Numbered from the stretch's first letter, positions 1 to 14,435 are shown. The stretch is DNA of 36,653 nt from Minisyncoccota bacterium (GCA_016927565.1 JAFGMK010000012.1:1-36653), one strand, 5' to 3'. Program-made: numbers and translations. The notes: a model not told the origin generated them from the letters alone.

Positions 1-101
1 CGTCCCAGAAAAAGACTGGGCTATTATACCCCAAGCGAAGTATTTGAAAAGGAGACAGGCTGGGGCATTTGAACATTGAATTCAGCTATTTATGATAAGG
101 C

Positions 102-130: not shown

Positions 131-137
131 TAGCTTT

Positions 138-1229
138 ATGGAAGAAAAAACTGATTATCAAGATCCATTTCTTAACCCAAGGCGAGAATTTATTAAAACT
201 GCTGCCTTTGCTTCGGCCTCAGTTCTGGCTACTTTTTGGGCTTATGACCTTTGCGCAAGATTTCAGGGAAATGATGAGGTGGCTAAACAAAGAAGAAGAC
301 AATTTGCCGAATGGATGGGGTGGGACAATCTTGATGATGAAAGATCAAGTCTTTATGAACCATTTGAGCCAATTGAGCTTCACGATGGACAGTTTGAAAT
401 GATTGGCGTTTCTCATACTGCCCAAACCCTTCATCTTCACCAAGAAGAAATGAGGGCAAAGGTTGCTCAAGCACCATTTGTTTTCTCTGAGTATTTTAGT
501 CCAGGTGTTCAGCGGGTAGCTCGTCTCGAAGTTACCTATGATCAGCTTAAAGCCCCTGAAAACTTTCATTTAGCTTTTTTTGGGGGGTTAGGGAAAATGT
601 GCGCAGAACAGGGGAAAGATATTGTTATTACTAATCCCCAAAATAAACCCTCCGAATTATTAGAATTTTATTTAGCTGGAGGGATTCCAGTTGGTCTGAC
701 TGGAATCGGACTTGTAGAAGCTTCTAAACTACTAGCTGATTTGTTTAAAAAACGATTTACCCGAAGACAAATTCTAAAAGGGATGTTTACTCAAGTTCCT
801 GCGTGGGCTTTAGTAAAAGCGCTGGCCATGGGCCCAACTGCTGCGGTTTGGGCTAGTTGGGAGGGATATACTCAAAAGGTACAATCAGCCCTAGTTGAAA
901 AGGGCTTAATTAATTCTGATTTACCACCCGAGGAACAAGCTCAGCTTCTGTCTTGGTACATGGTTGATTGGCGAGATGTTGAAACTGCTGAGGGAACAGA
1001 CAAAGCAATGAGTCTTTATGCAGGAGAAATTAGCCCAAGCCAAACAGCGCCAATGTTTCAGGGTTATGGACATGGGGGAATGAACGAATATCTTAAAAAT
1101 CCTGATTTAAGAAAAAAGAAGTTAGCCCACTATCCTCACTACCATGCTGTTGGCGAAACCAGCATCCGCCGTTATAGCCATGATCAAAAAAGCGATACTT
1201 GGAAGTTAGTTCAAAAGGTTGACTACTGA
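138..1229 (+). CDS. Putative TraB/GumN/Tiki-like protein with Tat-like N-terminus
   Basis: This 363-residue protein begins with a twin-arginine-like segment (R15-R16-E-F followed by a small-residue hydrophobic stretch to about residue 36), suggesting export or an N-terminal anchor. Spaced motifs resemble the TraB/PrgY/GumN/Tiki superfamily: a G-V-S-H motif near residue 93, E118 in F-S-E-Y, D280 after W-R, and a G-Y-G-H motif near residue 312. That family is a metal-dependent hydrolase-like fold, but the catalytic role here is inferred from motif spacing only. A second RR pair near 209-210 precedes a hydrophobic segment (about 212-240). The ATG is placed 7 nt after a good -10 box and there is no Shine-Dalgarno. 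A truncated homologue lies at 9706-9837. Alternatively it is a lineage-specific exported protein of unknown function. Confidence 0.6.
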   Translation: MEEKTDYQDPFLNPRREFIKTAAFASASVLATFWAYDLCARFQGNDEVAKQRRRQFAEWMGWDNLDDERSSLYEPFEPIELHDGQFEMIGVSHTAQTLHLHQEEMRAKVAQAPFVFSEYFSPGVQRVARLEVTYDQLKAPENFHLAFFGGLGKMCAEQGKDIVITNPQNKPSELLEFYLAGGIPVGLTGIGLVEASKLLADLFKKRFTRRQILKGMFTQVPAWALVKALAMGPTAAVWASWEGYTQKVQSALVEKGLINSDLPPEEQAQLLSWYMVDWRDVETAEGTDKAMSLYAGEISPSQTAPMFQGYGHGGMNEYLKNPDLRKKKLAHYPHYHAVGETSIRRYSHDQKSDTWKLVQKVDY

Positions 1230-1308
1230 ACGCCTTCTGAGAAATCTCTACTGGAGCTTTTTTTGTTTTTTCACTCTAAATTCCAGGGTGGCTGACGGCC
1301 GCGCTCGC

Positions 1309-1667: not shown

Positions 1668-1698
1668 GGGTCCCCTATGCAACGACGTTCGAACCTGG
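1668..1698 (+). repeat. R1 repeat, copy 1 (no REP units)
   Basis: The core runs GGGTCCCCTATGCAACGA then CGTTCGAACCTGG. This copy contains none of the 23-nt tandem units seen in longer copies. Weakly conserved trailing sequence (an AGAGAAAGAGTTAG block and a T-rich segment) continues to about 1760. It separates the R2/TraB-like module from the gene at 1806-2936. Confidence 0.75.
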
Positions 1699-1805
1699 AT
1701 TGGGGGGGTTGAGGATAAAGAGAAAGAGTTAGTAGGAAGATTTTTGGGATATTCGAATTTTGCCTTCTCTGCTAGCAAAGTTAGGGCCAGTTCTATCTTT
1801 TCAAA

Positions 1806-2936
1806 TTAGGTTGAGGGTGCAAGTTTTGCTTTTGAGGTGAATAACTCCAATAAGCTTTCGGGGGTAAATTCGCTTAGTCGTCTGGTAAGGGGAATTTTGA
1901 CAGTTTGCTTGCCTTCTTGATGGACAAGGATTTCGTTTTCGGTAAGTTCAGTTCTTGGAGGAATTAGTGGAGGGACAACCCTTCTTCTTCTCCAAAATCT
2001 TCTTCCCCTTTCCTTTTCAGCCGCTCTTTGACGGCTGCGCTGTCTCGCGAGGGGAGCTGAATTATCGTCTAGCACGCAAGTGCCGTCTTCTACTTTATAA
2101 TCCCAATGATCTTCTTGTCCTCCGAGTGGTGTTAGGGAGGGAGGGGGTTTTAAATGTTCGGGTAAATCAGCTTTGACAGAAAACTCTTTAAGATGGGCAG
2201 CCCCACCTTCTTCTAATTCTTCATATTTGGCAAAATAGTGACCATTGCCTGCCGGGTCGTTTTCTGGATTTTTCCAAGATACTTGAGTTATTAATGGCCA
2301 CCTTTTAGCATATCTTTCTGGAAATCTAAAGTTAAAAAGGCTGTAGTCGCCTCCTCTTCTAGTATGCCCCCATTGGGTGAGAAGGTATCCTGCTTCGTTT
2401 CGGCTGCTTTGTTTGTCACTATCAATAGCGATTCTGCCCGATTCGAAAGCAGGAAGTAGTAGTTTAGCGCGAGGAAAGAGTCGGTTAAAATTGAAGGTTA
2501 AGACTCTAGCGTTCTTGACGTACATTATATTAATCCCGCATGGCCAACGGATGCTTTTCTCTTCCATCTCGGCCATCATTTCGCCTTCCGGCCTTTGAAC
2601 ATAATAACGAATTTCAGCTCCCTGAGGATTTGAGGAAGGGGGGAATTTAAATTCGATTCGATCAATTTCTGAACGATATTCTACTCTTCCTGGAAAGTCA
2701 GGAGGTAAAAATTCTCTTAGTCTCTCTCGGTGATCTCGGTCTGTTAGGTCGCCGCTAGCAAAAAGACCCTTAGCGTAGTCATAGGCTGTTCTTTTGAGGC
2801 CGAGGCAGGTTGAAACACGCTCGCAAAGACTAACCTCGTACTGAGTTAAATCTCGCTCAGCTTCCAGAATTGCTGGCGTTAATTCTGTTTTACTTTCTTC
2901 GTGAAGAAAGTAGCTTTCATCAGCATTCTCTTCCAT
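1806..2936 (-). CDS. Hypothetical protein, module gene 1
   Basis: A 376-residue soluble protein with no signal peptide or membrane segment that I can see. The N-terminal half is acidic and mixed. The centre contains aromatic-rich beta-like segments (for example W-P-C-G-I-N-I-M-Y and F-N-F-N-R-L-F). Around residues 300-325 there is a strongly basic Arg-rich linker (R-R-F-W-R-R-R-R), which could bind nucleic acid or be flexible. No family is recognised. The ATG at 2936 lies 8 nt from an extended -10 box and has no Shine-Dalgarno, indicating a leaderless mRNA. The gene points towards R1 copy 1, and its promoter sits directly against the end of the IS110-type element, whose insertion may have removed any upstream regulatory sequence. 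Confidence 0.75.
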   Translation of the reverse strand: MEENADESYFLHEESKTELTPAILEAERDLTQYEVSLCERVSTCLGLKRTAYDYAKGLFASGDLTDRDHRERLREFLPPDFPGRVEYRSEIDRIEFKFPPSSNPQGAEIRYYVQRPEGEMMAEMEEKSIRWPCGINIMYVKNARVLTFNFNRLFPRAKLLLPAFESGRIAIDSDKQSSRNEAGYLLTQWGHTRRGGDYSLFNFRFPERYAKRWPLITQVSWKNPENDPAGNGHYFAKYEELEEGGAAHLKEFSVKADLPEHLKPPPSLTPLGGQEDHWDYKVEDGTCVLDDNSAPLARQRSRQRAAEKERGRRFWRRRRVVPPLIPPRTELTENEILVHQEGKQTVKIPLTRRLSEFTPESLLELFTSKAKLAPST

Positions 2937-2944
2937 TTGAGTTA

Positions 2945-2953
2945 ATTATAGCA
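2945..2953 (-). promoter_or_regulatory. Extended -10 promoter of module gene 1
   Basis: On the minus strand this reads TGCTATAAT, a perfect extended -10 box, followed by 8 nt and then ATG. It lies 4 nt from the IS inverted repeat, so the -35 region is now IS sequence and shows no -35 match. Confidence 0.6.
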
Positions 2954-2956
2954 CCT

Positions 2957-3124
2957 ATGAAACTGCTTCTCCCAGTTTTACTGGGATTTTAACATAAATT
3001 TCCCACATAGGCACCTATTCGTGACGACTTTTAGTCTCACCTGATCTCGGTTCTTGTTTGATCAACACCGTTCGGGCTATTCATTCAAATCTCGCGAGCC
3101 TCAGAGCTCAGGTACAATAACGAA
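2957..3124 (-). ncRNA. Candidate bridge RNA region of the IS110-type element
   Basis: This is the non-coding interval between the transposase stop and the inverted repeat. It can form several hairpins, including CCCAG-tttta-CTGGG near 2972-2986 and GAGCCTCAGAGCTC near 3097-3110. The octamer GCACCTAT spanning the element/flank junction (2951-2958) recurs inside at 3011-3018, as expected if a loop of a bridge RNA recognises the DNA at the junction. Presence of the RNA and its exact ends are inferred. Confidence 0.4.
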
Positions 3125-4135
3125 TCAACCTCCCGGTGCTTGCTGCTGATAAACCCGATCGTCAACTAAAAGCCGCCAGGATAAAACGGCTATCTTTCTG
3201 GCGATGGCCACAATCGCTTTCTTCTTGCCCCTTCTGGCAGCTAGAGCCGCAAAGTTCAGTTTAGTTTGGATATCACTCCTAACCAGGCGATGAGCGGCCT
3301 GGACCAAAACCCAACGGGCATAAGGGTTGCCTAACTTAGTAATCCTCCCTGATCTTTTAGTTTTTCCTGATTGATAAAGGCTGGGAACCAAGCCCAGGTA
3401 GGCAGCCAGTTTTTTGCCTGAGTCAAACCTTTCAGGATCACCGATTTCAGCCAGAAGAATAAAGGCGGTGATCTCACCAAAGCCGGGAATGCTTTTTAAG
3501 ATCTCTATCTGACGATTGCCCAAACAACGCTGAGAAATAATCTTTTCCAAGGTCTTGATTCTTAACCGAGTATTAACCAGAAGTTTAAGAAATTCATCAA
3601 TCACCAGTCTTTTGGTTTCATCAAGCTTTTGTTCTTTTAACCAAGCTTGGCCTTTAGTGCCGAAAAGATCACTCATTGGCGGGTGCAAATTGGCTTTGGT
3701 TAAAACAGCGTGGATCTGATTTTTACACCAGGTCTGCTGCTTGACCAATTGACATCTGGTCCGGGCCAACTCCCGGTTAGCCTGTTCTTGTCTGGTGGTA
3801 ATGTAGCTGGGGGGCACTAAGTTAGATCTTAACAGGTGAGCCAGGGTGGTGGCATCCAAAACATCATTCTTGATCCTGGCACTGGCAATCGCCTTGGTCT
3901 TCAAAGGATGAGCCAAAGACACCGGCACCTTAAACTCTTGGAAAACCTCTACCAGCCACATCCAGTTTTGGGTGGCTTCAATCACCGTTGAGGGTTTTTC
4001 CGGACACTGAGCCAGCAAAGACAAGACTTCCTCACGGGTGTTCCCGTACTGCTGACAATGCAGAACCTCCCCGACCTGATCCATGACCACGGCCTGAAAA
4101 CTCTTTTTATGAAGATCAATTCCAAGATAATTCAT
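3125..4135 (-). CDS. IS110-family transposase (DEDD recombinase)
   Basis: A 336-residue transposase with the RuvC-like N-terminal domain: D7 (G-I-D-L-H-K-K), E53 (V-I-E-A-T), D91 and D94 (K-N-D-V-L-D-A), the expected DEDD set. The C-terminal Transposase_20 region (I-P-G-F-G-E ... L-A-A-Y-L-G-L-V-P ... S-G-R-I-T-K-L-G-N-P-Y-A-R-W) contains the Ser/Gly-rich segment bearing the family nucleophile. Length is normal and no frame disruption is seen, so it is probably active. The start is preceded by AAAGGAGGTGA, a near-perfect Shine-Dalgarno, unlike most neighbouring genes. Part of that site can pair with GTGAAGCAG/CTGCTTCAC across 4137-4178, which may restrain translation from read-through transcripts. 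Confidence 0.93.
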   Translation of the reverse strand: MNYLGIDLHKKSFQAVVMDQVGEVLHCQQYGNTREEVLSLLAQCPEKPSTVIEATQNWMWLVEVFQEFKVPVSLAHPLKTKAIASARIKNDVLDATTLAHLLRSNLVPPSYITTRQEQANRELARTRCQLVKQQTWCKNQIHAVLTKANLHPPMSDLFGTKGQAWLKEQKLDETKRLVIDEFLKLLVNTRLRIKTLEKIISQRCLGNRQIEILKSIPGFGEITAFILLAEIGDPERFDSGKKLAAYLGLVPSLYQSGKTKRSGRITKLGNPYARWVLVQAAHRLVRSDIQTKLNFAALAARRGKKKAIVAIARKIAVLSWRLLVDDRVYQQQAPGG

Positions 4136-4184
4136 TCTGCTTCACCTCCTTTCTTCTTAAAGGATATCAGTGAAGCAGTTTCAT

Positions 4185-4270
4185 GGGATCAGAATAAGTT
4201 GCTCTTCTTGTACAGAAGGGGCTTGTGGGCTTTGTTAGAATCTTTTTCTGCCTTTTTACTCTAAATTCCA
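4185..4270. other. Flank between IS and R1 copy 2
   Basis: No gene is supported here. The right part (TTTTTACTCTAAATTCCAGGGT, about 4254-4274) is shared with the left edge of R2 copy 1 at 1269-1289 and resembles the 3' flank of tRNA-His at about 14,346-14,365. This links R1, R2 and the tRNA. Confidence 0.4.
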
Positions 4271-4370
4271 GGGTCCCCTATGCAACGAAGCTTGGCCTGA
4301 GTATGCCGAAGGGTTTATCCTGAGTATGCCGAAGGATTTATCCTGAGTATGCCGAAGGATTCGAACCTGG
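4271..4370 (+). repeat. R1 repeat, copy 2 (three REP-like units)
   Basis: GGTCCCCTATGCAACGA is followed by AGCTTGG, three tandem 23-nt units each starting CCTGAGTATGCCGAAGG, and the end block GGATTCGAACCTGG. Each unit is an imperfect palindrome (TCCT...AGGA). Trailing conserved sequence after the core includes a segment near 4425-4440 (TTCCCCCACCGGCTCG) that resembles the tails of other copies. Confidence 0.8.
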
Positions 4371-4530
4371 TTTGGTGCTGTTGGGTATAGGGAGGCGGAT
4401 TACCTAGAGAGTTTTTTGGTTCCCCCACCGGCTCGTTCTTCACATGGCTTTTTGGCTGATTGAGTGATATGGAAATGTCACCTTGTCCAACTGACGGCCG
4501 AAGTTTGGTTGATGTTGGCGGCATTATTCT

Positions 4531-5664
4531 TTAGGTCATGAGTGGTGGTAAAAATGGAGCTTCTAGTCTTGTTGAAAAGAAGTCGGTTAAAGTTTCAGTT
4601 GCCCGTGTGGTTTTGTCAGGCTCTGTTCTGGCCATTAGGGCCAACTTAGGAACTAATACAGCTTCTCTGTTTTCCCATATCTGGCTTAAAACACCTCTTT
4701 CGTGAATGTCGAAAAGCTGAGCAAGTTGGGCTAACAAGTAAGTAGCCCATGAGTACTTAATCCGGCCATAATCGACAGGGTCTTGAGTTGAAAAGGCAGC
4801 CCATGATAACTCGTCGAATCCGCGACTGGCTATTTCAACAAGCCTTGCTTTTAATTCCAAAGGAAATCGTTCCGGAAAGTCATGTTCTTGGGACTGAGCT
4901 GAGTTTCCTAGAACCAGGTTTTGAGCCACGAATCTTAGGCATTGGTCTCTTATTTCTGGCTGCGACCCTACAAGCGTGTTGAGTTGAGGAGAAAGGTAGT
5001 GCGCCTGAACTTCACTAAGAATACCTTCTGGGGCTCTAAAAACGGGATTACTAAGAAATTCCCATTTGTCTAAATCACGAAGTATGTAGCAAAAACGGTA
5101 TGCATCTTCAGACAGTTGGCTTGCTCCCTCTGGGGAGGGAACTGTTTTTTCGGAGTGCCAATATGCCGCATAGAGGATTATGTACTGAATGTCTGGAGGC
5201 AACTCTTTTAAAACTAAGTTGTCGACCAAAAACCAAGCGCTTAAAACTCCGTGTCTCCTGCCTGTTTCTTGACTATTCCACCTCAAGCATGCTTCGGGAG
5301 GTCGACCGACATCATGGAGAGATAAAAGCTTTAAGACAGTTGCTTCTTTCGGGTCCAGGCCTAGAAAAGCTGTCATTTCTGGCACCTCTTTGATCATTTC
5401 TTTCATATGAGCAATCTTTTTCTTTCCGGCCATATGTCCGGGTTGTCTTTGTTCTACAAAAGATACCCATGGAGTGAGGGCTTGGAAGGCAACGGCAAGG
5501 GCCCTATCGGATTGGCCGCTAAGCTGATTTAAACTAGGTTGAGCTGATACCTGACCTGCTTCTGCCCAGATCTTGGTTTCTTCAAGAAAAGCATCAACCC
5601 GACTAACAATCTCCCCAGGGTCTATTTGTGTTATGTAACTTTCTATTTCTGCAAAACCTTTCAT
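4531..5664 (-). CDS. HD-domain phosphohydrolase, module gene 2
   Basis: A 377-residue soluble protein with an HD metal-dependent phosphohydrolase core: H86 as the likely first ligand, H117-D118 in S-L-H-D-V-G, H138 in R-R-H-G, H170 in Y-W-H-S, and D197/D199 in L-R-D-L-D-K. That pattern fits nucleotide or cyclic-nucleotide hydrolases, but the substrate cannot be told from sequence. The N-terminal 70 residues and the C-terminal third (about 250-377) are helical and unrecognised. The ATG is 8 nt from an extended -10 box without a Shine-Dalgarno (leaderless). It is the only gene between R1 copies 2 and 3 and points towards copy 2. Confidence 0.8.
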   Translation of the reverse strand: MKGFAEIESYITQIDPGEIVSRVDAFLEETKIWAEAGQVSAQPSLNQLSGQSDRALAVAFQALTPWVSFVEQRQPGHMAGKKKIAHMKEMIKEVPEMTAFLGLDPKEATVLKLLSLHDVGRPPEACLRWNSQETGRRHGVLSAWFLVDNLVLKELPPDIQYIILYAAYWHSEKTVPSPEGASQLSEDAYRFCYILRDLDKWEFLSNPVFRAPEGILSEVQAHYLSPQLNTLVGSQPEIRDQCLRFVAQNLVLGNSAQSQEHDFPERFPLELKARLVEIASRGFDELSWAAFSTQDPVDYGRIKYSWATYLLAQLAQLFDIHERGVLSQIWENREAVLVPKLALMARTEPDKTTRATETLTDFFSTRLEAPFLPPLMT

Positions 5665-5672
5665 GTTATAGG

Positions 5673-5681
5673 ATTATATCA
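5673..5681 (-). promoter_or_regulatory. Extended -10 promoter of the HD gene
   Basis: On the minus strand this reads TGATATAAT (TG-n-TATAAT), followed by 8 nt and then the ATG at 5664. No Shine-Dalgarno fits between, so a leaderless transcript is expected. Confidence 0.6.
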
Positions 5682-5727
5682 CTTGATTGAAAAAAGTTGG
5701 AATTTTTTGAGGTGGGGATTTTTCCTG

Positions 5728-5826
5728 GGGTCCCCTATGCAACGAAGCTTGGCCTGAGTATTCCGAAGGGTTTATCCTGAGTATTCGAAGGGTTTATCCT
5801 GAGTATGCCGAAGGATTCAAACCTGG
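5728..5826 (+). repeat. R1 repeat, copy 3 (three REP-like units)
   Basis: Same core as copy 2, with three tandem units: one has TATTCC in place of TATGCC and another has lost a base (TATTCG). The end block reads GGATTCAAACCTGG (one mismatch). The tail (GAGAAAGAGCTGG, then a T-rich run and TTATTCCCCAGCTGGCTTTTG at about 5872-5892) closely matches the tail of copy 8 at about 13,346-13,366. Confidence 0.8.
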
Positions 5827-5892
5827 TTTGGGAGGGTTGGGGAGAAAGAGCTGGTGTTTTTGAAAGGCTTGTTTATTCCCCAGCTGGCTTTT

Positions 5893-6045
5893 GTCTTAGG
5901 ATAGTTGGGCGTGTCCCCTCTTCGTAATAAGGTTCCAAAGTTTTCGAACCGACTTTATGGGTTTTCAAGCATTCTTATGATGGGTTTTTAGATTTCGGGA
6001 CGGGGATTTTAGGGGAAAAGCCTATTGGGGGTTTAAAAGATGTTG
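5893..6045. other. Non-coding gap downstream of module gene 3
   Basis: No credible open frame or RNA is seen. The interval contains short G- and T-rich stretches and no clear terminator. Confidence 0.3.
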
Positions 6046-6561
6046 TTATTTCATTCCCAATTTACGCAGGAGAGCCTCTTTGGGTGCTTCGTGAACTAGC
6101 TCTCCGGTGAGAGTGGCGCGAGTGTCCGTTTCCAACTGGTCAAGACTTGACCGGTCGACTAATTGAGCGGTGGTAAACAGTCTTTGGAGCTGTTCGAGTA
6201 TCTCGGGAGTAACATCGATTAATTGATGGGCAAAAGCGACGAGTTGGTGGGTTCGCTCAGCTCCTTTTTTCATTAGAGGTTGATCTGCTTGGGGGAGGTG
6301 GAGTTGATGAGTGGCTTCTGCCGGGGAGAAGGGCTTATCATCAGGGCAAAAAAGCATACGATAACCTTCAGTTTGTTGGCCGGGTGGAGTTGGCTCGTCA
6401 TAACCATGAAAACCGATAGTTACTAGGTCAAATTTAGTTCCGTGGAGAGTGCTTACTGTGGAGGCGGCGACGACATCTCCGAGATGGGGATGTTTTTCTT
6501 GAAAATCATCAATTGGTTCAGGTGGGAGAGGAATAGTAACATCTTCATGTGCGGGGTCCAT
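6046..6561 (-). CDS. Hypothetical protein, module gene 3
   Basis: A 171-residue soluble, His- and Pro-rich protein with no signal peptide or membrane segment. The N-terminal half is Pro-rich with a short beta-like core (F-D-L-V-T-I-G-F-H-G-Y-D-E); the C-terminal half (about 95-171) is helical and Leu/Gln-rich. It matches no family I recognise. The ATG has a good Shine-Dalgarno (AAAGGAGGG, 9 nt upstream), unlike several neighbours that look leaderless. It is the sole gene between R1 copies 3 and 4. Confidence 0.7.
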   Translation of the reverse strand: MDPAHEDVTIPLPPEPIDDFQEKHPHLGDVVAASTVSTLHGTKFDLVTIGFHGYDEPTPPGQQTEGYRMLFCPDDKPFSPAEATHQLHLPQADQPLMKKGAERTHQLVAFAHQLIDVTPEILEQLQRLFTTAQLVDRSSLDQLETDTRATLTGELVHEAPKEALLRKLGMK

Positions 6562-6671
6562 TTTTTAGTTTCCCTCCTTTTATGATTTGATTTTTATTAT
6601 TTTAACATTTTTTGATAATTTGGACATTTCCAATTTTGTTTTTAAGTCTTAACTGATTTGTCCTTACCATA

Positions 6672-6749
6672 ATGGCCAAGCGCAAGAAATATCACCCGGG
6701 AATTAGGAATTTAATTCGCAATGAAAAAAGGCGAGATTCTTCTTTATGA
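6672..6749 (+). CDS. Possible 25-residue basic peptide
   Basis: A short frame starting ATG-GCC-AAG-CGC encodes M-A-K-R-K-K-Y-H-P-G-I-R-N and ends R-R-D-S-S-L. It is very basic (K and R are about a third of residues). CATAAT overlaps the start, which might act as a leaderless -10 only if placed further upstream, so expression is uncertain. It shares a module with the gene at 6046-6561. It may be chance. Confidence 0.2.
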   Translation: MAKRKKYHPGIRNLIRNEKRRDSSL

Positions 6750-6796
6750 AATAGCCTCAAAAAGCCGACCAGAGGCGTTCGAACGTCGTCCCGTCA

Positions 6797-6850
6797 GGGT
6801 CCCCTATGCAACGAAGCTTGGCCTGAGTATTCCGAAGGATTCGAACCTGG
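6797..6850 (+). repeat. R1 repeat, copy 4 (one REP-like unit)
   Basis: Core GGGTCCCCTATGCAACGA, AGCTTGG, one 23-nt-type unit (CCTGAGTATTCCGAAGG) and the end block GGATTCGAACCTGG. Upstream, a palindromic CGTTCGAACG (about 6776-6785) and CCCGTCA partly match the left arm of copy 5. The trailing AAAGAGAAAGAGTTA block matches copy 1. Confidence 0.78.
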
Positions 6851-6926
6851 TGGAGGAGAATCTCGGGTAAAGAGAAAGAGTTAATAGGAGGATTTTTAAC
6901 AGGCCAAAGCTTATCTTGTGTTTAAC

Positions 6927-9335
6927 CTAAATAAAATCAGGCATTAGGTTGGGGTCATATCGAAGCTCGTTTGGCAGAATTGCGATACCCTTAATTGACT
7001 TGTCTACTTCACGCGCAAAGGTTAAGTATTGGTTGGGCAATAATGAACCAACCTTTCTTCTTCTTAGCATCTCTCTGTAAATATCGATCCCGTAATCCTC
7101 CAGTATTTCTTGAGCATGAGTTCTTGCAGTGTCAGACTGCATCGTAATCACCCGATTTGGAGTCGATTGTAAAACCATATAATGAGCCCTTCGAAATTCT
7201 AATCTTCTTGGAGCCGGTTCTTCACCTGGGCCTCTGACTTCCTGGTCCTGAGCTAGTAGCCCAGAGGTTATGAAATAAAGCCTTCGGAGAAGCAAATTAG
7301 CAAAAACATCTCTTTGGGCAACGTCTGCCATAAATTTTTGTCTTGAGTATCCTAGCATATTGCCTTGAGTATCAAGCCAAAGAGTTAGGGGGTCATCTAA
7401 CCCAGCGATCCAAATTTCAGCTTGATGTTCTCTTGGGAAATCAGGGTCGATTCTAAAGGTGACCGATTGAATCATCCTAGAAGCTAGCTCAGGATCACCA
7501 TGTTGAGAAAAACGATCTCCTCGAGGAGAAACAAACCAAGTATTAAAATCGTTAATTTGTTTCCACAGGGCTTCATTCTCTCTGGCCGCTAAGTCAACTG
7601 TTTCTGCATCTTCTTGCCAAAAAAGCCTTAAGTATCTTCGAAATAGCTCTTCCTGCAAAGTTGCCTCTCGAGATTCGAAAACACCATCTCTCCTGGCACC
7701 CCTTAAGAATCTTCTTAAATGTTTTATGCGTTCAGGAGCCTCCTCTCCTTGAAGTCTTAAAAGTTCCTCATTAACCGGGAAATGGCCTTTTGCTTCCGCT
7801 ACGGTTTCTACAGTAATTAGATTAGCACCAGCAGCCGACGCTAATACATGTAAGTCTGCTTCAATCCCGAACCTTTCCATAACAACCCTCACCGGCTCCA
7901 TTGCCATGGCATCCTCAGCATACCCGTCGGCTCCACTTTCTTCACTATGCGCTCGACGCCCCTGCTTGGCAAAATGCATAATTTTTTTGTTGGCCTGCAC
8001 AAGAATTTTCGACCTTGCCATTGCTACTAGCGGATGATCCCCTTTAAGTTTACTTAAGGCTGTAAAGCCCTCAATTATGCGTCTTTCATCTGTTGCTCGT
8101 GCTTGGTCTACCAAATCAAGACTCTTTTTTTGCTGTATATAGAGCTTAGCTAGTTCTGGTGGATACCGACCTGCCTCAAGGAATAAATCAACCACAGGCT
8201 TTCTAACGGTGTCGTAGTATCTGGATACCAACCGCGCAGCTTCCTCTTCTGGGCTTGCCTCACGAAAAATTGCCCCTAACTCTGTTGTAACAGATTGAAC
8301 CGCTAGAGTTTTGCCTTGAAACAGAGCCGCGGTTGCCATATCGTATGCAAGTGAAACCTGAGGATAGGCTTCGCCAAAATCGTGGTGGGAAAAATAGGCT
8401 GCTCGATTTTTTAAAAAAGTGAAATATCCTCTTTTTAAGTCTGCAAACTGCCTATCGTTTTGCCCGGCAGCTTCAGGTTCTTCACCAGCTGTTGGAAAGC
8501 TTATAACCGTGCCAAGGACCTCACAATCTCTTGCCGTTGCAACTAACCCGGGAGTCTCACGATAATGATACCGAGTAAACAAGCCTCTATCTCTTGTTCC
8601 AGCCATAAATTGAGTAAGATTTTCTAAGAAATAGTCAATTGGACCAGCTTCGTAACCTTCATGTTTGCTTGTATTAGCAATTAAATCTTGTCCTTCGTTA
8701 ACTAAGCTAGGTAACCTAGCCAGAGCGGAGGAAGAAAATGAATCATCGGCTTCGTCATTTCCAAGAGAGAAGATATCAACCACTGCCTTAGCCATAATTA
8801 ATTCTTGAACTCTTTCGGCTCTTCTTACAGCAAGAGACAGTGTTTGTATCTGAGGCTCATACTGTTGTTTCCATAAGTTCGATACTCTTCTTTGTCTTTT
8901 TGCTTTTCCTTTTGTCCTGCCACTGCCCATAATTTCTGCTTTTTTTGCTTCATAGTCAGCTCTTGCTTGCTCAGAAGCATCATAATGATCTTGACGAACC
9001 TGCCGATACTCACCCACCAACTCCACATAAGCAAATAACCTTGCCTGGTCCCCGCCAATCGGTCTTTCTACTCCATAGGCCTTGGCAAGAGTTGAATCTT
9101 TAACATCAACTAAAAAGTTAGCCTGGATGGCCTGAAGCCTGCCCTCTAAGGCCCGATCTACTTCCTCAGCCGACCTTTCACTTGCCAATAACCAGGCATC
9201 ATCTCTTAACTCAACTTCCACAAGCTGATCTTGTGGTTGGCCTGTTTCGGCGCTTCGGAGTCTGATATGTTCTTGCTCTTGGACGTCCCCCGACTCAGAT
9301 GACATGATAACTAACCCGAAATCTTGATAATTCAC
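6927..9335 (-). CDS. Very large hypothetical protein, module gene 4
   Basis: An 802-residue, mostly helical, charged protein and the largest in the repeat array. No signal peptide or transmembrane segment is visible. Residues about 105-180 look like coiled coil with a basic patch near 145-160 (K-G-K-A-K-R-Q-R-R). The C-terminal part (about 610-720) has a more globular, beta-like section. I recognise no catalytic motif; a structural or scaffold role is a guess. The GTG at 9335 lies 4 nt from an extended -10 box; an alternative ATG is codon 11 (9305), which would give a leader of about 30 nt without a Shine-Dalgarno. It is alone between R1 copies 4 and 5. Confidence 0.75.
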   Translation of the reverse strand: MNYQDFGLVIMSSESGDVQEQEHIRLRSAETGQPQDQLVEVELRDDAWLLASERSAEEVDRALEGRLQAIQANFLVDVKDSTLAKAYGVERPIGGDQARLFAYVELVGEYRQVRQDHYDASEQARADYEAKKAEIMGSGRTKGKAKRQRRVSNLWKQQYEPQIQTLSLAVRRAERVQELIMAKAVVDIFSLGNDEADDSFSSSALARLPSLVNEGQDLIANTSKHEGYEAGPIDYFLENLTQFMAGTRDRGLFTRYHYRETPGLVATARDCEVLGTVISFPTAGEEPEAAGQNDRQFADLKRGYFTFLKNRAAYFSHHDFGEAYPQVSLAYDMATAALFQGKTLAVQSVTTELGAIFREASPEEEAARLVSRYYDTVRKPVVDLFLEAGRYPPELAKLYIQQKKSLDLVDQARATDERRIIEGFTALSKLKGDHPLVAMARSKILVQANKKIMHFAKQGRRAHSEESGADGYAEDAMAMEPVRVVMERFGIEADLHVLASAAGANLITVETVAEAKGHFPVNEELLRLQGEEAPERIKHLRRFLRGARRDGVFESREATLQEELFRRYLRLFWQEDAETVDLAARENEALWKQINDFNTWFVSPRGDRFSQHGDPELASRMIQSVTFRIDPDFPREHQAEIWIAGLDDPLTLWLDTQGNMLGYSRQKFMADVAQRDVFANLLLRRLYFITSGLLAQDQEVRGPGEEPAPRRLEFRRAHYMVLQSTPNRVITMQSDTARTHAQEILEDYGIDIYREMLRRRKVGSLLPNQYLTFAREVDKSIKGIAILPNELRYDPNLMPDFI

Positions 9336-9339
9336 CTGT

Positions 9340-9348
9340 ATTTTAGCA
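9340..9348 (-). promoter_or_regulatory. Extended -10 promoter of module gene 4
   Basis: On the minus strand this reads TGCTAAAAT. Transcription from it would begin around the GTG at 9335, consistent either with a leaderless GTG start or with a short leader to the ATG at 9305. Confidence 0.5.
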
Positions 9349-9450
9349 TAGAACGGGTATTTTAAGGGTGATTATTTAACCCATAGCTGAGGAAGTGGGG
9401 AGGTTTTATTGAAACATCTTTATTTCTTAGATTTCTATGACTAACTAAGG

Positions 9451-9544
9451 AGGTTCGAATCCCGTCAGGGTCCCCTATGCAACGAAGCTTGGCCTGAGTA
9501 TTCCGAAGGGTTTATCCTGAGTATGCCGAAGGATTCGAACCTGG
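9451..9544 (+). repeat. R1 repeat, copy 5 with 12-bp outer inverted repeats
   Basis: The most complete copy. AGGTTCGAATCC (9451-9462) and GGATTCGAACCT (9531-9542) are perfect 12-bp inverted arms enclosing GGGTCCCCTATGCAACGA and two REP-like units. The tail near 9590-9610 (TTACTCCCCTACCGGCTTAT) matches tails of copies 3 and 8. The arms contain the GGTTCGAATCC sequence of a tRNA T-arm. Confidence 0.8.
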
Positions 9545-9669
9545 TGGAAAAACACTAAGAGAAGTAAGTTGGGGTTTTTAAAGAGTTTTCTTACTCCCCT
9601 ACCGGCTTATATCTTTCGATAGGCGGTGGGAGATTGAAGAATTTCTTCCTCTCAGATTTATCGTAAAGC

Positions 9670-9698
9670 TTGAGCTTGCCTCAGCGATGTCGTAAAAT
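9670..9698 (+). promoter_or_regulatory. Duplicated promoter upstream of the gene fragment
   Basis: TTGAGC (9670-9675), 17 nt, TAAAAT (9693-9698). It is the counterpart of the promoter at 102-130, with identical boxes and spacing, and lies 7 nt before the GTG at 9706. It may drive both the 43-codon fragment and the overlapping gene at 9830. Confidence 0.55.
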
Positions 9699-9705
9699 TA
9701 GCCTT

Positions 9706-9837
9706 GTGGAAGAAAAAACCGAATCTCAAGATCCAACTCTTGCCCCGAGGCTAGAGTTTATTAAAACCGCTGACTTTGCCTCGGTCTCGGTTCTAGCTAC
9801 TCGTTGGGCGTATAATAGGGAGGACAATTATGGGTGA
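9706..9837 (+). pseudogene. Truncated copy of the TraB-like gene, now a possible uORF
   Basis: The frame (GTG start, 43 codons) aligns with the first 36 codons of the gene at 138: both open with V/M-E-E-K-T, share Q-D-P and E-F-I-K-T-A, and keep L-A-T-x-W-A-Y. The twin Arg pair has become R-L, removing the Tat-like motif, and homology stops after A-Y. The stop TGA at 9835-9837 lies within the first codons of the next gene (ATG at 9830), so ribosomes ending here could re-initiate there. DNA similarity extends upstream through the promoter to about 9650. Confidence 0.7.
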
Positions 9838-11434
9838 TGGCGAACTGGGAGCAGAGAAGCCTTCGGTTGGAGAACAGCGTCTTGGTTTGGGGGTAGTGAA
9901 TAAGTTGGCTGATAGGTATTTTATTCGAGGACGCCAGCCAGAATGCCTTTCGGTAACTAGGGTGTTTGAGTATAGGCAAATGCTTCCAGAGATCCAGCGG
10001 TGTTACGCTGGGGCTGGAAGTTGGCACGGAACGGGAAGATTTCAATACCGGGATGGGGAGCGGGTTGATATTTTGGAAGGTATTTTGGTAAACAAGGGAT
10101 TGGCTCCTCAACAAGACAGTTGGGATCCTCAAACAGGGACAGTTCACCGGATTTCGACGGCACCTTCCAGAATGTATGCTCGTCTTTATGCAGGGATGCA
10201 TTTTCATGAGGGTCAGGGATTAGTTAATCCTTGTGGGGATACTAAGTTATGGGTTGATTTTTTTATTGGTTCGTTGACCCTGGAGGTGATTCGTGAGTTT
10301 GGGTCAATAGGAAATTTGCTTCGGTCAAAAGGTAGTAGCCGGAAGTTCTGGTCTGAACTGGAGAAGAAACATAATTTTAGTTTGGCTGAAAATGTAGAGA
10401 AGTGGCGAGGTAAGGTTACCCAGAAAAAGATCCCGGTGACGCGGGTGTTTATGGCCGGTTCTGATATTTCTGGTAACTACCCGATCTTAATTGGAATTAG
10501 GAAGGGATCAGTTGTTCCTGCTGAGGCCTCAAGAAGTATTCAAAAACATGAGGTTAGGGTTGCTGAGGCCATAAGTCTGGACGAGTTTACTCATCTTGAA
10601 GTTCCCTTAAAGAATGTGGTTGAAACTTTGGCGTTTTTGCAGGATCGGGGGAGGGGGGATGTTCCAGTAATTCCTTTGGAGTTTGGAGAAGAATATTCCC
10701 GGGGCCTTCCGTTTTCGGCGTTGGTTCGTGGTGGGGTGATGGAACCAGGGGATCAGGTTGGAAGAGAAGTGGCTAGAGAGGTTGTCTTTCCTCAATCGGA
10801 GAGTATTCCCAACGCCGGCTCCCTGGCCCAGTTTGCTCCTCAAGTTGGCTGGTTTCCTTCACCCGAAAGAGCGTTTGATTGGGTCCATGGGATTGGACAT
10901 CATGCTCGGGTTCTAGTCTTACAAGAGGTTCGAGCTCAGTCCCTGATTGAGTCTGGTGCTGTTCCGGCCGACATTGACAGAGAGGCTTTGAGGTGGACAG
11001 CAGTGACTCATGATGCTCGAAGAAGAAGCAATCTTCGCTCGCTTGATCATGGGGTAGAAGCAGCGGCTTGGGTGGATGCTGTTCTCCCTTCTGATTTGCC
11101 AGCAGAAACTTGCCAAAAGATTAAGCTTATTTTGGCTCACCATGATGATGAAGATGGAAATTTGGCCCAACAACTGCCTGAACTGGCGATATTAGGAGAT
11201 GCAGATAAGCTGGAAAGGTGTCGGTTAGAACATTTATTACCTCCGCGGACGCCGGCGAAGTTGAGGCGAAGAGTAGGATTGGATCCTACTTATCTACATT
11301 ACTCTGATTCTATTCTTTTTGCTCCTTTAGCGGAGGCGTTGTTTCTTTTGAGTAGGCAAAATCAAAAAAGATACCAACGAAATCCTTTTCAGAGTGTGAT
11401 GGATGCGGCTTTGGTTTTGGGGGTGGTGAAATAA
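9830..11434 (+). CDS. Putative ADP-ribosyltransferase-like/HD-domain fusion
   Basis: A 534-residue soluble protein. The N-terminal half resembles the H-Y-E class of ADP-ribosyltransferases: H66-G67-T68, then I-L-E-G-I-L-x-N-K-G-L-A-P, a segment S-T-A-P-S-R-M-Y-A-R-L-Y-A (Y116/Y120), and E241 in H-E-V-R-V followed by a L-D-E-F-T-H-L-E-V-P strand. The C-terminal half has an HD core: H357/H358, H394-D395, H407, H437-H438-D439 and D457/D459. A base- or nucleotide-modifying enzyme paired with a phosphohydrolase is one reading; substrates are unknown. The HD part is firm, the ART part tentative. The Shine-Dalgarno AGGGAGG is 6 nt upstream, and a TATAAT sits immediately before it. The first codons overlap the end of the 43-codon fragment. 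Confidence 0.75.
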   Translation: MGDGELGAEKPSVGEQRLGLGVVNKLADRYFIRGRQPECLSVTRVFEYRQMLPEIQRCYAGAGSWHGTGRFQYRDGERVDILEGILVNKGLAPQQDSWDPQTGTVHRISTAPSRMYARLYAGMHFHEGQGLVNPCGDTKLWVDFFIGSLTLEVIREFGSIGNLLRSKGSSRKFWSELEKKHNFSLAENVEKWRGKVTQKKIPVTRVFMAGSDISGNYPILIGIRKGSVVPAEASRSIQKHEVRVAEAISLDEFTHLEVPLKNVVETLAFLQDRGRGDVPVIPLEFGEEYSRGLPFSALVRGGVMEPGDQVGREVAREVVFPQSESIPNAGSLAQFAPQVGWFPSPERAFDWVHGIGHHARVLVLQEVRAQSLIESGAVPADIDREALRWTAVTHDARRRSNLRSLDHGVEAAAWVDAVLPSDLPAETCQKIKLILAHHDDEDGNLAQQLPELAILGDADKLERCRLEHLLPPRTPAKLRRRVGLDPTYLHYSDSILFAPLAEALFLLSRQNQKRYQRNPFQSVMDAALVLGVVK

Positions 11435-11611
11435 GCGACTCTGTTCCTGGAGCGGTTTGAGTATAACCAAAATTTACACCTTCCGGGTGTGTTGGTTTGA
11501 CCCCTAGTTACCATCTGTTTGCTAACGAAATTTTTCACTAGGGCGTGAAGTCAAGACGCTTTCTAGGTCTACTCCGCTAGGCGCACTCCTACTTCTGAAC
11601 TTTGAAATCTG
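11435..11611. other. Non-coding gap with a weak hairpin
   Basis: A bulged hairpin (AACCAA...ACACC-ttcc-GGTGT...TTGGTT, about 11,466-11,498) follows the ART-HD gene. It lacks a T-run, so terminator function is doubtful. No open frame is supported. Confidence 0.3.
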
Positions 11612-11642
11612 GGGTCCCCTATGCAACGACGTTTGAGTCTGG
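11612..11642 (+). repeat. R1 repeat, copy 6 (short, diverged)
   Basis: GGGTCCCCTATGCAACGACG is followed by TTTGAGTCTGG in place of TTCGAACCTGG. No tandem units are present. It separates the ART-HD gene from the small membrane protein. Confidence 0.65.
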
Positions 11643-11708
11643 TGGAAAAATATTTTGGTGAGAGAGAGGGGTAGTGAAGGTGATTTTGAAAGAGAAGTTT
11701 TGTTTTCT

Positions 11709-11996
11709 CTAGTGTCGAGGTTGTTCCGAAGGCCGGACGCAAATCCCTAAGCAGCCGAAGCATGTGCTCGGCAAAAAATTTGGTTCTGGGATATTCCAAT
11801 CGACTTTTGGCTCTTTACATACGAAGCCTGGGAGGCACCTACGCTTGGCTCCTGGGCCAGTACAATTCTTATAGGGTAGATCGTAAAATAAATAGACATA
11901 AATAATCAAGAAGATTATAAGGACTCCAGCCAGGATTAAGGGGAGGCGCCAGCCTGACTTGAAACTTCTCAAAGCTTTTTTATTTTTGCTTTCCAT
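11709..11996 (-). CDS. Small Cys-rich membrane-anchored protein, module gene 6
   Basis: A 95-residue protein with a positively charged N-terminus (K-rich, then R-L-P-L), one transmembrane helix (about residues 19-38) and an outside segment with six Cys in a compact area (N-C-T-G, R-R-C-L-P-G-F-V-C-K, C-F-G-C-L-G-I-C), suggesting disulfides or metal binding. No family is recognised. The ATG lies 8 nt after an extended -10 (TGATATACT on the minus strand) with no Shine-Dalgarno, which supports both the start and a leaderless mRNA. It is the only gene between R1 copies 6 and 7. Confidence 0.6.
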   Translation of the reverse strand: MESKNKKALRSFKSGWRLPLILAGVLIIFLIIYVYLFYDLPYKNCTGPGAKRRCLPGFVCKEPKVDWNIPEPNFLPSTCFGCLGICVRPSEQPRH

Positions 11997-12004
11997 TGAT
12001 TATA

Positions 12005-12013
12005 AGTATATCA
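12005..12013 (-). promoter_or_regulatory. Extended -10 promoter of the Cys-rich membrane gene
   Basis: On the minus strand this reads TGATATACT, then 8 nt, then the ATG at 11,996. It has the same geometry as the promoters at 2945, 5673, 17,123 and 27,609. Confidence 0.55.
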
Positions 12014-12027
12014 CACTAGATTTTCTG

Positions 12028-12290
12028 GGGTGGCTGACCCTCCAAAAATTCCGGCTTTGCCAAGAATATTTAGGCGGGCCGCGTCAAGCGCGGCGGGCAG
12101 GCGGGATTTCCTCCTTCGCTAAAGCTTTGGAAGGACTTTGTGAAGACGACGCTTGTCTTTTGGATTGTTTACAAGCTGCTTTTTAAATTGAGAGATTTTG
12201 CTTTGTTTTTAAACTGCCGACCCTTAGCGGGTTCATTCACCCATCAGCCGAAAGAAAAATTGCCCCGGAATGGGGGCAATTTTTTCTTTG
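12028..12290. repeat. R2 repeat, copy 2
   Basis: It matches R2 copy 1 (1271-1500) in its left edge (GGGTGGCTGAC), the GAAGACGACGCTTGTC block, the GCGGGTTCATTCAC block and the terminator hairpin, and runs directly into R1 copy 7. Between GGCTGAC and GGGATTT it carries an insert with a GC-rich hairpin (CCGCGtcaagCGCGG, about 12,078-12,092), at the position where copy 1 also carries a palindrome. Confidence 0.6.
12255..12285. terminator. Bidirectional intrinsic terminator (R2 copy 2)
   Basis: A perfect 12-bp stem: AAAAATTGCCCC (12,255-12,266) pairs with GGGGCAATTTTT (12,273-12,284), with a T-run on both strands. It would isolate the minus-strand gene on the left from the plus-strand gene on the right. 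Confidence 0.75.
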
Positions 12291-12320
12291 GGTCCACTAT
12301 GCAACGAAGTTCGAACCTGG
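12290..12320 (+). repeat. R1 repeat, copy 7 (short)
   Basis: GGGTCCACTATGCAACGAAG followed by TTCGAACCTGG. There are no tandem units. It abuts the R2 terminator, showing that the two repeat types join directly. Confidence 0.72.
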
Positions 12321-12408
12321 TGGAGAGAGGTTTCAGATAAAGAAATTGTTTTTTGGAAAGACTTTTTAAACGCGGGGCTTGATTCTTTTGCTTTTATATA
12401 GATGCGGT

Positions 12409-12417
12409 TGATATAAT
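12409..12417 (+). promoter_or_regulatory. Extended -10 promoter of module gene 7
   Basis: TGATATAAT, with a possible TTGCTT -35 at 12,388-12,393 (18-nt spacer). The leader is about 28 nt and carries a Shine-Dalgarno (AAGGAGG). Confidence 0.55.
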
Positions 12418-12452
12418 AAATTAGTTATTCTAACCTTCTTAAGGAGGCTTAA

Positions 12453-13181
12453 ATGGGTGAAGCTAGTGACGTTGAAAGTAGAGAGGTAGATAGTAGGCAT
12501 GCCGATAAATTTGCCGCCCTCAGCGCCTTGACTCAGGCTTGGAAAGAATATGATGCCTTTCAAGAGGCGGCTGATCAAAGTACGCCTATGGAGGCACAAC
12601 TAGCAGCTGAGAGGGCGCATGCTACGGCAATCAGAGATGCGGAGGCTGCCGGAGCAACCCAGTTTGATCTTGATCACGCCTGGTTGGAAGCGTGCTCTTC
12701 GGAGCGAAGGCAGGACACCTATAGTTGGATTTGCGATCAAACCACCTTGTCTGATGCCCAGCTGCAAGCTTTACGAGAAATTTATGGCTTGAGGGAAGAA
12801 AGAGTAAGAAGGACTGCTGAGGATCAGGCGGAAAGATTAAATGGTGCTTTAGGTAGGTTAGATCAGCTTGTTCAAGCTCATACTGCAGCGGGGTCTGTGG
12901 AGGTTCCTCAAAAACTGAATCCGATGATATTAGATGAGTTGGACTGGGATGGCGAGGAGTCTGTTCGAGCTCTTTTTAGGCAATATCGAGGGACCAAGAA
13001 GCCAATAACTGCAGCGGCAAACGCCTTACATAGGGGGCGCGTTTCTTCCTTAAATGATGTTTTGGGAGCTAATGGGGCTGATGTGAGAAAGATAAGACAG
13101 ATTGGAGAAATCGGTGAAACCCTTTTTAATTTAACGAAGAATCTTTTGCTGGTTTGGCAGGAGACTCACCCCGAAGAATAA
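12453..13181 (+). CDS. Hypothetical helical protein, module gene 7
   Basis: A 242-residue acidic, Ala- and Glu-rich protein predicted to be almost entirely helical, with coiled-coil-like segments around residues 25-70 and 100-140. It has no signal peptide, membrane helix or catalytic motif that I recognise. Start choice is firm: AAGGAGG lies 7 nt before the ATG and a TGATATAAT box lies further up. It is the only gene between R1 copies 7 and 8, on the plus strand like the next module gene. Confidence 0.75.
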   Translation: MGEASDVESREVDSRHADKFAALSALTQAWKEYDAFQEAADQSTPMEAQLAAERAHATAIRDAEAAGATQFDLDHAWLEACSSERRQDTYSWICDQTTLSDAQLQALREIYGLREERVRRTAEDQAERLNGALGRLDQLVQAHTAAGSVEVPQKLNPMILDELDWDGEESVRALFRQYRGTKKPITAAANALHRGRVSSLNDVLGANGADVRKIRQIGEIGETLFNLTKNLLLVWQETHPEE

Positions 13182-13254
13182 ATAAGCCATTGGTTGTTAA
13201 CTTGTTTTTTCCCAACCTCGACTAATAAAGGATCTTTCAAGAATCTAACTAGGT

Positions 13255-13300
13255 AGGTTCGAATCCCATGGGTCCTCTATGCAACGACGTTCGAACCTGG
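13255..13300 (+). repeat. R1 repeat, copy 8 with inverted arms
   Basis: AGGTTCGAATCC at 13,255-13,266 mirrors the end block; the inner 9 bp AGGTTCGAA / TTCGAACCT (13,290-13,298) are perfect. The core reads GGGTCCTCTATGCAACGACG with no tandem units. The tail to about 13,366 (GAGAAAGAGTTGG, then TTTTTACTCCCCGGCTGGCTTTTG) leads straight into the promoter of the next gene. Confidence 0.78.
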
Positions 13301-13385
13301 TTTGGTGGCGTTGGCGAGAAAGAGTTGGGATTTTTGAGGGGGCTTTTTACTCCCCGGCTGGCTTTTGCCTTAGCTTAGGACTTGT

Positions 13386-13394
13386 TGGTATAAT
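13386..13394 (+). promoter_or_regulatory. Extended -10 promoter of the JAMM-like gene
   Basis: TGGTATAAT with a plausible TTGCCT about 18 nt upstream. The ATG at 13,405 follows after 10 nt without a Shine-Dalgarno. Confidence 0.6.
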
Positions 13395-13404
13395 TCTCTT
13401 TAAG

Positions 13405-14313
13405 ATGGGTGAGTTGACAGGTGATAACTTTATGTTGGAGGATTCTTGCGAGAGAGAAGCAGGGCAAACTCTTGCTCGGGTAAGTGAATCGGCGAGGTTG
13501 GGTTTACAGGTGATGATTGGCCATGAATTTTCAGCGGATGACAGCCCGCCTCGGGAAATCCGCTGGCAACATCCTACCCTTAAAGAATATTTAACAACGG
13601 TTGCAACTACTCCCAAGCAAGAACAGGCTTTAACTGTTGGATATTTTGACCCAGTTAGTTTAGATGGGAGTGATGCAGTAGTTGTTCGTGGTGCTGAAGA
13701 AAAGTCCACTATGTTTCCACCTGGTCTTTCGAAAGAAGAGAAATCTCGAGTTAATACGCCCCTAATTATTCTCCATTCTCACCCTGTTCCGGCTCAAATG
13801 CATTTGAGAGAGCCTTGGTTTACTAGTGAAAATGACCCTCTGCTTCGGCTTTGGAGATTTAAAGGAAGGGTTCGGCCTTGGGGAATTGTGGGCGTTAGCT
13901 ATCCCACGGGAATTAGCGACCTTTATTGGACTGATCTTTACTTGATGCCAAAAAACCTTTCAGAGCCAGAAAGAATTGTCGAAGAATTTAAAGCGCTAAG
14001 ACAGGGTGGATTATCATTTGCATCACTAGCGGAGATTATAGCTTTAGCGTTGACAATGCCGGGGAGGTTGAGATCAGCGGCGAGAGAAAAGCTTGTTAAC
14101 TTCGTTGTGGCGGAGCTTAACGATCGGGCTTCTGAACGGGCAATAGAAGAGCGACCCTCCTTTGATGTCTTTTCTCCAGAAAGCAGAATAAAGAGGGCTC
14201 AGGTTGATAGGTTTTGTCAAAGGCTGGGGATTATCCAATACCGAGCCGCGACAACTAAAGAAGAAATGCAATCCGGTTGCGAGACGTTGACTTTTAAACT
14301 CCTAGATCAATAA
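13405..14313 (+). CDS. JAMM/MPN-like metalloprotease candidate, module gene 8
   Basis: With the ATG at 13,405 the protein has 302 residues. The longer open frame from 13,279 begins inside R1 copy 8 and crosses the promoter, so it is not used here. The segment H124-S-H126-P followed by S141-E-N-D144 resembles the zinc-binding H-x-H-P...S-x-x-D signature of JAMM/MPN+ isopeptidases, but the gap to the Ser is about seven residues longer than usual. A glutamate upstream (E98/E99) could be the catalytic acid. The N-terminal 60 residues and the helical C-terminus (about 190-302) are unrecognised. No ubiquitin-like partner is visible in the window. Moderate confidence in the fold, low in the substrate. 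Confidence 0.65.
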   Translation: MGELTGDNFMLEDSCEREAGQTLARVSESARLGLQVMIGHEFSADDSPPREIRWQHPTLKEYLTTVATTPKQEQALTVGYFDPVSLDGSDAVVVRGAEEKSTMFPPGLSKEEKSRVNTPLIILHSHPVPAQMHLREPWFTSENDPLLRLWRFKGRVRPWGIVGVSYPTGISDLYWTDLYLMPKNLSEPERIVEEFKALRQGGLSFASLAEIIALALTMPGRLRSAAREKLVNFVVAELNDRASERAIEERPSFDVFSPESRIKRAQVDRFCQRLGIIQYRAATTKEEMQSGCETLTFKLLDQ

Positions 14314-14362
14314 AATCCTTCCTTGCCTAGACTCTTTTTTATTTTTTTACTCTGAAACCCAG

Positions 14363-14435
14363 GGTGACTGACGGGATTTGAACCCGCAACATCCGGCTCC
14401 ACAGGCCGGCGCTCTACCATTGAGCTACAGCCACC
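14363..14435 (-). tRNA. tRNA-His (GTG)
   Basis: A complete cloverleaf on the minus strand: acceptor GGTGGCT pairs with AGTCACC (one G-T), the anticodon loop CTGTGGA sits in a CCGGC/GCCGG stem (anticodon GTG), and the T-arm is CGGGTTCAAATCCCG. The extra 5' G (G-1) opposite C73 is present. CCA is not encoded. The 3' part and its flank are echoed in the R2 and R1 repeats, and the gene marks the right boundary of the repeat array. Confidence 0.95.

Follow-up and report, generated by a model that had tools for sequence, protein, structure and literature searches.

The window analysed here is the whole of contig C14 (36,653 nucleotides) of a Minisyncoccota bacterium (GCA_016927565.1, JAFGMK010000012.1), known from one draft assembly of 1.19 Mb in 31 contigs. 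Between positions 1,668 and 14,435, copies of a repeat, R1, alternate with mostly single genes in a row that ends at its anchor, a tRNA-His gene (GTG; 14362-14434, minus strand). The favoured explanation, at a probability of roughly 0.62, is a tandem array of small cassettes that accumulated at the tRNA-His 3' end through successive rounds of site-specific recombination, with double-stranded sites as substrates. It draws on features that can be read from the sequence itself: the array, the structure of its junctions, flanks shared between junctions, a second array behind another tRNA gene, and copies of tRNA ends. A preliminary description of this DNA had proposed a recombination-built array, and the proposal gained support from the second array, from flank exchange and from the lack of R1 copies elsewhere in the genome.

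Eight R1 cores were found in the window, all on the plus strand as earlier described, with a nearly invariant 18-nt sequence, GGGTCCCCTATGCAACGA. The cores lie at 1668-1685 (copy 1), 4271-4288 (copy 2), 5728-5745 (copy 3), 6797-6814 (copy 4), 9468-9485 (copy 5), 11612-11629 (copy 6), 12290-12307 (copy 7, one mismatch) and 13270-13287 (copy 8, one mismatch). Six of these starts agree with the preliminary description; the two other positions it gave, 9451 and 13255, proved to be the starts of tRNA-like left arms, with the cores at 9468 and 13270. At up to two mismatches, a scan of the whole genome returned nine forward, zero reverse and zero control matches; at five mismatches it returned only scattered weaker matches. 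The ninth core was located at C1:6981, at most 112 nt from the end of contig C1, which breaks at this core within a tandem of CCTGAGTATTCGAAGGGTTTAT. A half R1 site was found at C1:4337. Nine of nine cores on a single strand and at a single locus is far beyond chance, and the random scatter of copies that would have spoken against an array was not seen in the genome.

Contig C1 is probably a continuation of the C14 array. This is not proven, because C14 starts in an 86-nt repeat common to other contig ends. The same 86 nt (window positions 1-86) occur at the ends of contigs C3, C15, C21 and C22 and represent an unassembled multi-copy repeat at the left edge of the window. R1 is unlikely to have caused a false join, since contig-end overlaps reach about 87 nt and the longest exact repeat between R1 copies is 57 nt. 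Intervals in the window held mostly a single gene without Pfam relatives, in line with the earlier claim of one main gene per interval. One interval on C1 carried two genes, so 'one gene' is a tendency and not a rule.

R1 is modular, consisting of the 18-nt core and a right flank of 60-75 nt, and in five copies palindromes are inserted between the two. On the minus strand, going away from tRNA-His, every unit closes with an arm of 60-75 nt ending in ACCAGGTTCNAA, followed by the core as CGTCGTTGCATAGGGGACCC, with inserted palindromes in some units. The right flanks showed approximately 45-54% mean pairwise identity, followed by a drop to background. An example is 13290-13365 (plus strand), the minus strand of which ends in ACCAGGTTCNAA; the equivalent flanks start at 1688, 4360, 5816, 6840, 9534, 11632 and 12310. 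The arms have drifted and the core has not, and the core is therefore either constrained or exchanged. The palindromes are of the CCTGAGTATTCCGAAGG type and number from one to at least four in tandem: three follow copy 2 (to about 4358), three follow copy 3, one follows copy 4 and two follow copy 5. Copy 6 has no palindrome insert. Because palindrome-free copies exist, the palindromes, which resemble repetitive extragenic palindromes (REPs), are most simply read as later insertions. Left arms were seen at copy 4 (GTTCGAACGTCGT CCCGTCA), at copy 5 (GGTTCGAATCCCGTCA, 9452-9467, one mismatch relative to the tRNA-His T-arm) and at copy 8 (GGTTCGAATCCC, at 13256).

The R1 junctions share flanks with the tRNA-His end and with a second repeat, R2, which includes copies of that end. 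The first flank type (..CTCTAAATTCCAGGGT) precedes R2 at 1257-1289 (plus strand, ending ..CTAAATTCCAGGGT) and R1 at 4242-4274, and a related form precedes the tRNA-His 3' end at 14333-14365. Three different ends are adjoined by this one type: R1 at 4271, R2 at 1278 and tRNA-His at 14362. The second flank type (..ATTTTCTGGGGT) precedes R1 at 1656-1667 and R2 at 12014-12030. Likeness between the shared flanks ends at the junction. From the shared flanks it follows that R1, the tRNA-His end and the copies of the tRNA-His end hold the same place relative to the flanks. Such sharing is the trace expected of attachment sites recombining with one another and is the strongest internal evidence; it also favours the earlier view of R1 copies as tRNA-related junctions.

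The arm motif ACCAGGTTCNAA had nine exact matches genome-wide, five in C14 and four in contig C10, all on the same strand, and zero elsewhere. By arithmetic, chance would give about 0.6 matches per genome and 0.01 for C10, a somewhat optimistic figure given that the motif was derived from the His array and generalised after C10 had been seen. The four C10 sites (7253, 8365, 9585 and 15977) all lie downstream of tRNA-Trp (4994-5065) and are directed away from the tRNA as in the His array; they read as a second array behind tRNA-Trp. The core at C10:8365 is CAAAGTTCACCAGCCCCTGC, the last eight bases of which are the tRNA-Trp 3' end. Through the C10 intervals come first a NUDIX-like gene together with a Y1 transposase gene and one resembling nucleotidyltransferases, then a TIM-barrel-like gene, and then a gene without a family (all but Y1 named from sequence). 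Other Y1 transposase genes are present in the genome. The Y1 gene of the Trp array looks REP-associated, and would fit the inserted palindromes and not the cassettes. IS110-like elements abut the expected core position at C10:9585 and at C1:4337, and IS110 therefore seems to target R1 there. The two IS110-like remnants (C10:9587-9804 and C1:4138-4346) are 77% identical, and both end exactly at a half R1 site (..ATAGGYGTTSGAACCTG).

R2 belongs to a ten-copy family of tail units of approximately 130 nt, with GAACC near the start, CTTGNATAACG mid-unit and CCGCGGCGTC at the end. Tail units were found behind seven tRNAs: Trp, Cys, Glu, Val, Lys, Leu and His. Three R2 copies belong to tRNA-His: R2b (1497-1632), R2a copy 1 (1278-1458), the tRNA-His-like end of which carries an insert, and R2a copy 2 (12026-12254), which shares approximately 85% identity with copy 1 across 152 nt and is directly abutted by R1 copy 7. 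One further unit, on C28, has no adjacent tRNA. The Leu and Lys units were recovered by a model built without these two, and the one behind tRNA-Leu (TAA; 26868-26996), outside the array, first came to light in this way. All four tail units of the window lie on the minus strand. The start of a tail unit is an inverted copy of the T-arm region of its own tRNA. Among 40 tRNAs, the own tRNA ranked first for this start (ties included) in eight of 11 units and second in the other three; the 11 include two partial units, behind tRNA-Arg and tRNA-Thr.

After GGCGTC, tail units continue with a copy of the own tRNA 3' end from the T-loop onward. This copy is exact for Val, Cys and Glu, has one mismatch in R2b (1497-1517), which starts with the inverted tRNA-His T-arm, and in the Trp, Lys and Leu units is either degraded or interrupted. 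Overall, tRNA-end copies were present for Val, Cys, Glu, Ile, Trp and His, and such a copy forms an insert boundary for Val, Cys, Glu, Ile and R2b; for R1, the outer edge alone matches the tRNA end. At tRNA-Val, the tail unit is followed by a single-gene unit without Pfam relatives, closed by a second exact tRNA-end copy, so that the gene is flanked by two exact copies. Short GGGATGAGAAGTTTACCCTGAG..CGAAGG units, each ahead of an end copy of tRNA-Ile or tRNA-Glu, were also seen (C3:3329-3472, C28:43112-43190 and C8:1-70); they are palindromic REP-like repeats at T-loop positions behind tRNAs.

No recombinase gene was found in the array of the window, as the preliminary description had also stated for integrases, and no tyrosine recombinase lies beside R1 or R2 or in the His and Trp arrays. 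Tyrosine recombinases in the genome comprise two Xer-like genes, one of which adjoins tRNA-Ile, and one short remnant on C5. The PF07508 profile matched three serine recombinases (C5:2405, C5:22399 and C20:71815); the gene at C28:41482-43206, which has a Resolvase domain, brings the number to four. The C20 enzyme (499 residues, open reading frame 71116-72615) has its stop codon inside tRNA-Asn (71070-71145), for which no second end copy was found in the whole assembly. The C28 frame passes through the tRNA-Glu end copy at C28:43121. Large serine recombinases were found at RNA-gene edges at these two places, tRNA-Asn and the tRNA-Glu end copy, and none in the His array.

A unit of the proposed system, read away from the tRNA, would begin with a short flank, carry in most cases a single gene of either orientation, and continue with the 60-75-nt arm ending in ACCAGGTTCNAA and the R1 core. 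The core would stand where the tRNA 3' end stands, making R1 and the tRNA end partners in exchange. The enzyme would be encoded outside the array and act in trans on both the His and the Trp arrays. The best candidates are the large serine recombinases whose genes sit in tRNA 3' ends; a tyrosine recombinase is the alternative. The C28 and C20 genes are arranged like those of the Dehalococcoides ssrA islands, and we infer that such a serine enzyme acts in trans. Recombination, its direction, this choice of enzyme and any present mobility of the units are all put forward from sequence pattern.

Several points weigh against this explanation. The R1 core matched none of the tRNAs of the genome, with tRNA likeness confined to the outer edge and the arms; the core sequence differs between the His and Trp arrays; and the array contains no recombinase gene. 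The exchange claims rest on the pattern of junctions. The nearest genomes compared belong to other families of the order, and R1 was found in none of these 58 relatives. The tRNA-His loci of other genomes of the class lacked such end copies, leaving the system known from this assembly only. Thirty stretches surrounding tRNA genes of relatives, for the most part tRNA-His, showed no tRNA-end copies, and the low-mismatch matches there were neighbouring tRNAs or lone matches by chance. The R1 core had no match in IMG/VR, and its exact form had one lone match among GTDB species genomes (a genome titled Alkalicoccus), taken as chance. The tail-unit model gave only weak matches over 186 other genomes of the class, the best at an E of 0.002 per genome, and these were treated as noise. 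A short motif, GGCGTCTTCRANTCC, occurred four times in this genome; two others had a single match apiece, which did not lie at a tRNA end.

A first alternative is that islands with tyrosine integrases that target tRNA T-loops, as mycobacteriophage Ms6 with its tyrosine-type integrase does, persist here as many partly deleted copies, with R1 and R2 as their attachment sites and the cassettes as deletion remnants. The copies here begin at the T-loop and extend to the tRNA 3' end, and an Xer-like gene adjoins tRNA-Ile. Ms6 integrates by T-loop exchange at tRNA-Ala genes, its core runs to the tRNA 3' end, and an altered attP core permits another T-loop, at lower efficiency, so that integration is retargetable (PMC1762012). 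Unlike the system described here, Ms6 is a single phage, without arrays or an inverted T-arm copy. This alternative is unlikely: the C5 integrase remnant is short, the two intact genes look like Xer proteins, and none of the three adjoins an R1 or R2 site.

Still more doubtful is a retargetable system, a family of elements with tRNA-matched ends in which one machinery would serve many tRNA genes and the R1 arrays would be its cargo store. Its ends, an inverted T-arm copy on one side and a direct 3'-end copy on the other, would follow the host tRNA in each case, and matching could arise via a guide or by copying at insertion.

It is improbable that the tail units, instead of being attachment sites, are functional RNAs tied to their own tRNA, for instance antisense RNAs or mimics of tRNA ends. 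The inverted start, with the own tRNA at rank one or two of 40 in 11 of 11 units, would suit this, as would the position of most units directly behind a tRNA, but the units had no consensus structure or unusual folding, and the window had no Rfam match. Moreover, 3.4 kb and other genes separate the Trp unit from its tRNA, and the distance is 2-13 kb for the three His units. A group I intron was likewise disfavoured, the tail units having no consensus fold and the window no Rfam match.

R1 as a self-jumping short repeat, of the REP type or the miniature inverted-repeat transposable element type, lying between genes by happenstance, has slightly less in its favour. The REP-style palindromes inside five copies and the Y1 transposase genes are compatible with it, but all nine cores lie in one array and on one strand and are not scattered over the genome, their flanks are common to the tRNA end, and some copies have no palindromes.

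An integron-like array recombined as folded single strands (CALIN type, with attC sites and no integrase nearby) shares single-gene units, mostly unknown genes, one-directional junctions and a weak match of integrase profiles to the Xer-like recombinases, but it is very improbable and largely refuted: RYYYAAC..GTTRRRY was found in zero of eight R1 copies and zero of eight tail or palindrome units, R1 folded no better than dinucleotide shuffles on either strand (z -0.9 to +1.9) and the tail units folded ordinarily, all three tyrosine recombinases fell far below the integron integrase profile cut-off with no IntI, and gene orientation is mixed. The folded-hairpin reading of attC was dropped on these grounds, and the earlier observation that attC sites are missing stands. 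The RNA- or single-stranded-DNA-mediated mobilisation that had also been suggested found no support, with neither a reverse transcriptase nor TnpB found in the genome and the R1 folding as above.

Among known systems, integron and CALIN arrays resemble the His array in their rows of single, mostly unknown genes and one-directional junctions, but here there is no attC motif, unusual folding or integron integrase. Tycheposons and other tRNA-nested islands also accrete accessory genes at a tRNA anchor, but have their own tyrosine recombinases and are larger than the units here. In the Dehalococcoides ssrA islands (DsiB), tandem islands lie behind one RNA gene, inserted at the T-loop and each closed by a 3'-end copy; a conserved motif lies beside the repeat, the repeat is embedded in the serine recombinase gene, and many islands have no recombinase (PMC3146451). 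The present system shares the tandem arrangement and the units without a recombinase, and resembles these islands in part in the other traits. It differs in that its units span approximately 0.7-2.7 kb and as a rule carry a single gene, that several tRNAs serve as anchors, and that the R1 core is no simple copy of the tRNA end. On this evidence the system is probably a new form of tandem island anchored on RNA genes, its units mostly cut down to one gene and several tRNAs in use. Integrons are the textbook collectors of single genes; if the proposed explanation is true, a different, tRNA-anchored system gathers unknown genes in a very small genome. It would then offer a search key for such arrays (ACCAGGTTCNAA arms with tRNA-end copies), a way to trace where unknown genes of small-genome bacteria come from, and possibly a recombination system matched to many tRNA targets.

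The genes of the array lie on both strands. Those on the minus strand encode 376 residues (1806-2936), 377 residues (4531-5664), 171 residues (6046-6561), 802 residues (6927-9335) and 95 residues (11709-11996), the last in an interval that also holds R2a copy 2. Those on the plus strand encode 363 residues (138-1229), 534 residues (9830-11434) and 242 residues (12453-13181), and a further gene ends at 14313. Its listed open reading frame starts at 13279, but 13406 is the likelier start because a TATAAT-like box sits just upstream. The IS110-family transposase gene (3125-4135, minus strand; family named from sequence) shares its interval with the 376-residue gene and is homologous to two further IS110-like stretches elsewhere in the genome.

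None of ten proteins tested from C14 and C1, including those of 363, 376, 171 and 802 residues, had a Pfam family above cut-off, the exception on C1 being a phosphomannomutase-like gene. To the right of tRNA-His, five of nine genes had Pfam families. Against defence, phage and NCBI family libraries, the cassette genes had only weak HD-type, helicase-type or ZapD-type matches, and none received a confident function. Weak HD-domain matches occurred in three genes in or near cassette sites (4531-5664 and 9830-11434 in the window, and C28:28257-29006).

The 534-residue protein had homologues in four other genomes of the class (E < 1e-10) and one weak match. Their distribution is patchy, with 61% identity in a different family and none in the order. 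No tRNA was found near these homologues in the stretches read, no array near the best match, the sole one read for repeats, and no viral relative was found. Window positions 88-245, covering the start of the 363-residue gene and its upstream region, recur at 9656-9813 (80%), and the first 37 codons of that gene recur at 9706-9816, before the 534-residue gene. This fragment appears to be a broken duplicate cassette gene. The N-terminus of the 363-residue protein, RREFIKTAAFASASVLATFW, looks like a twin-arginine signal.

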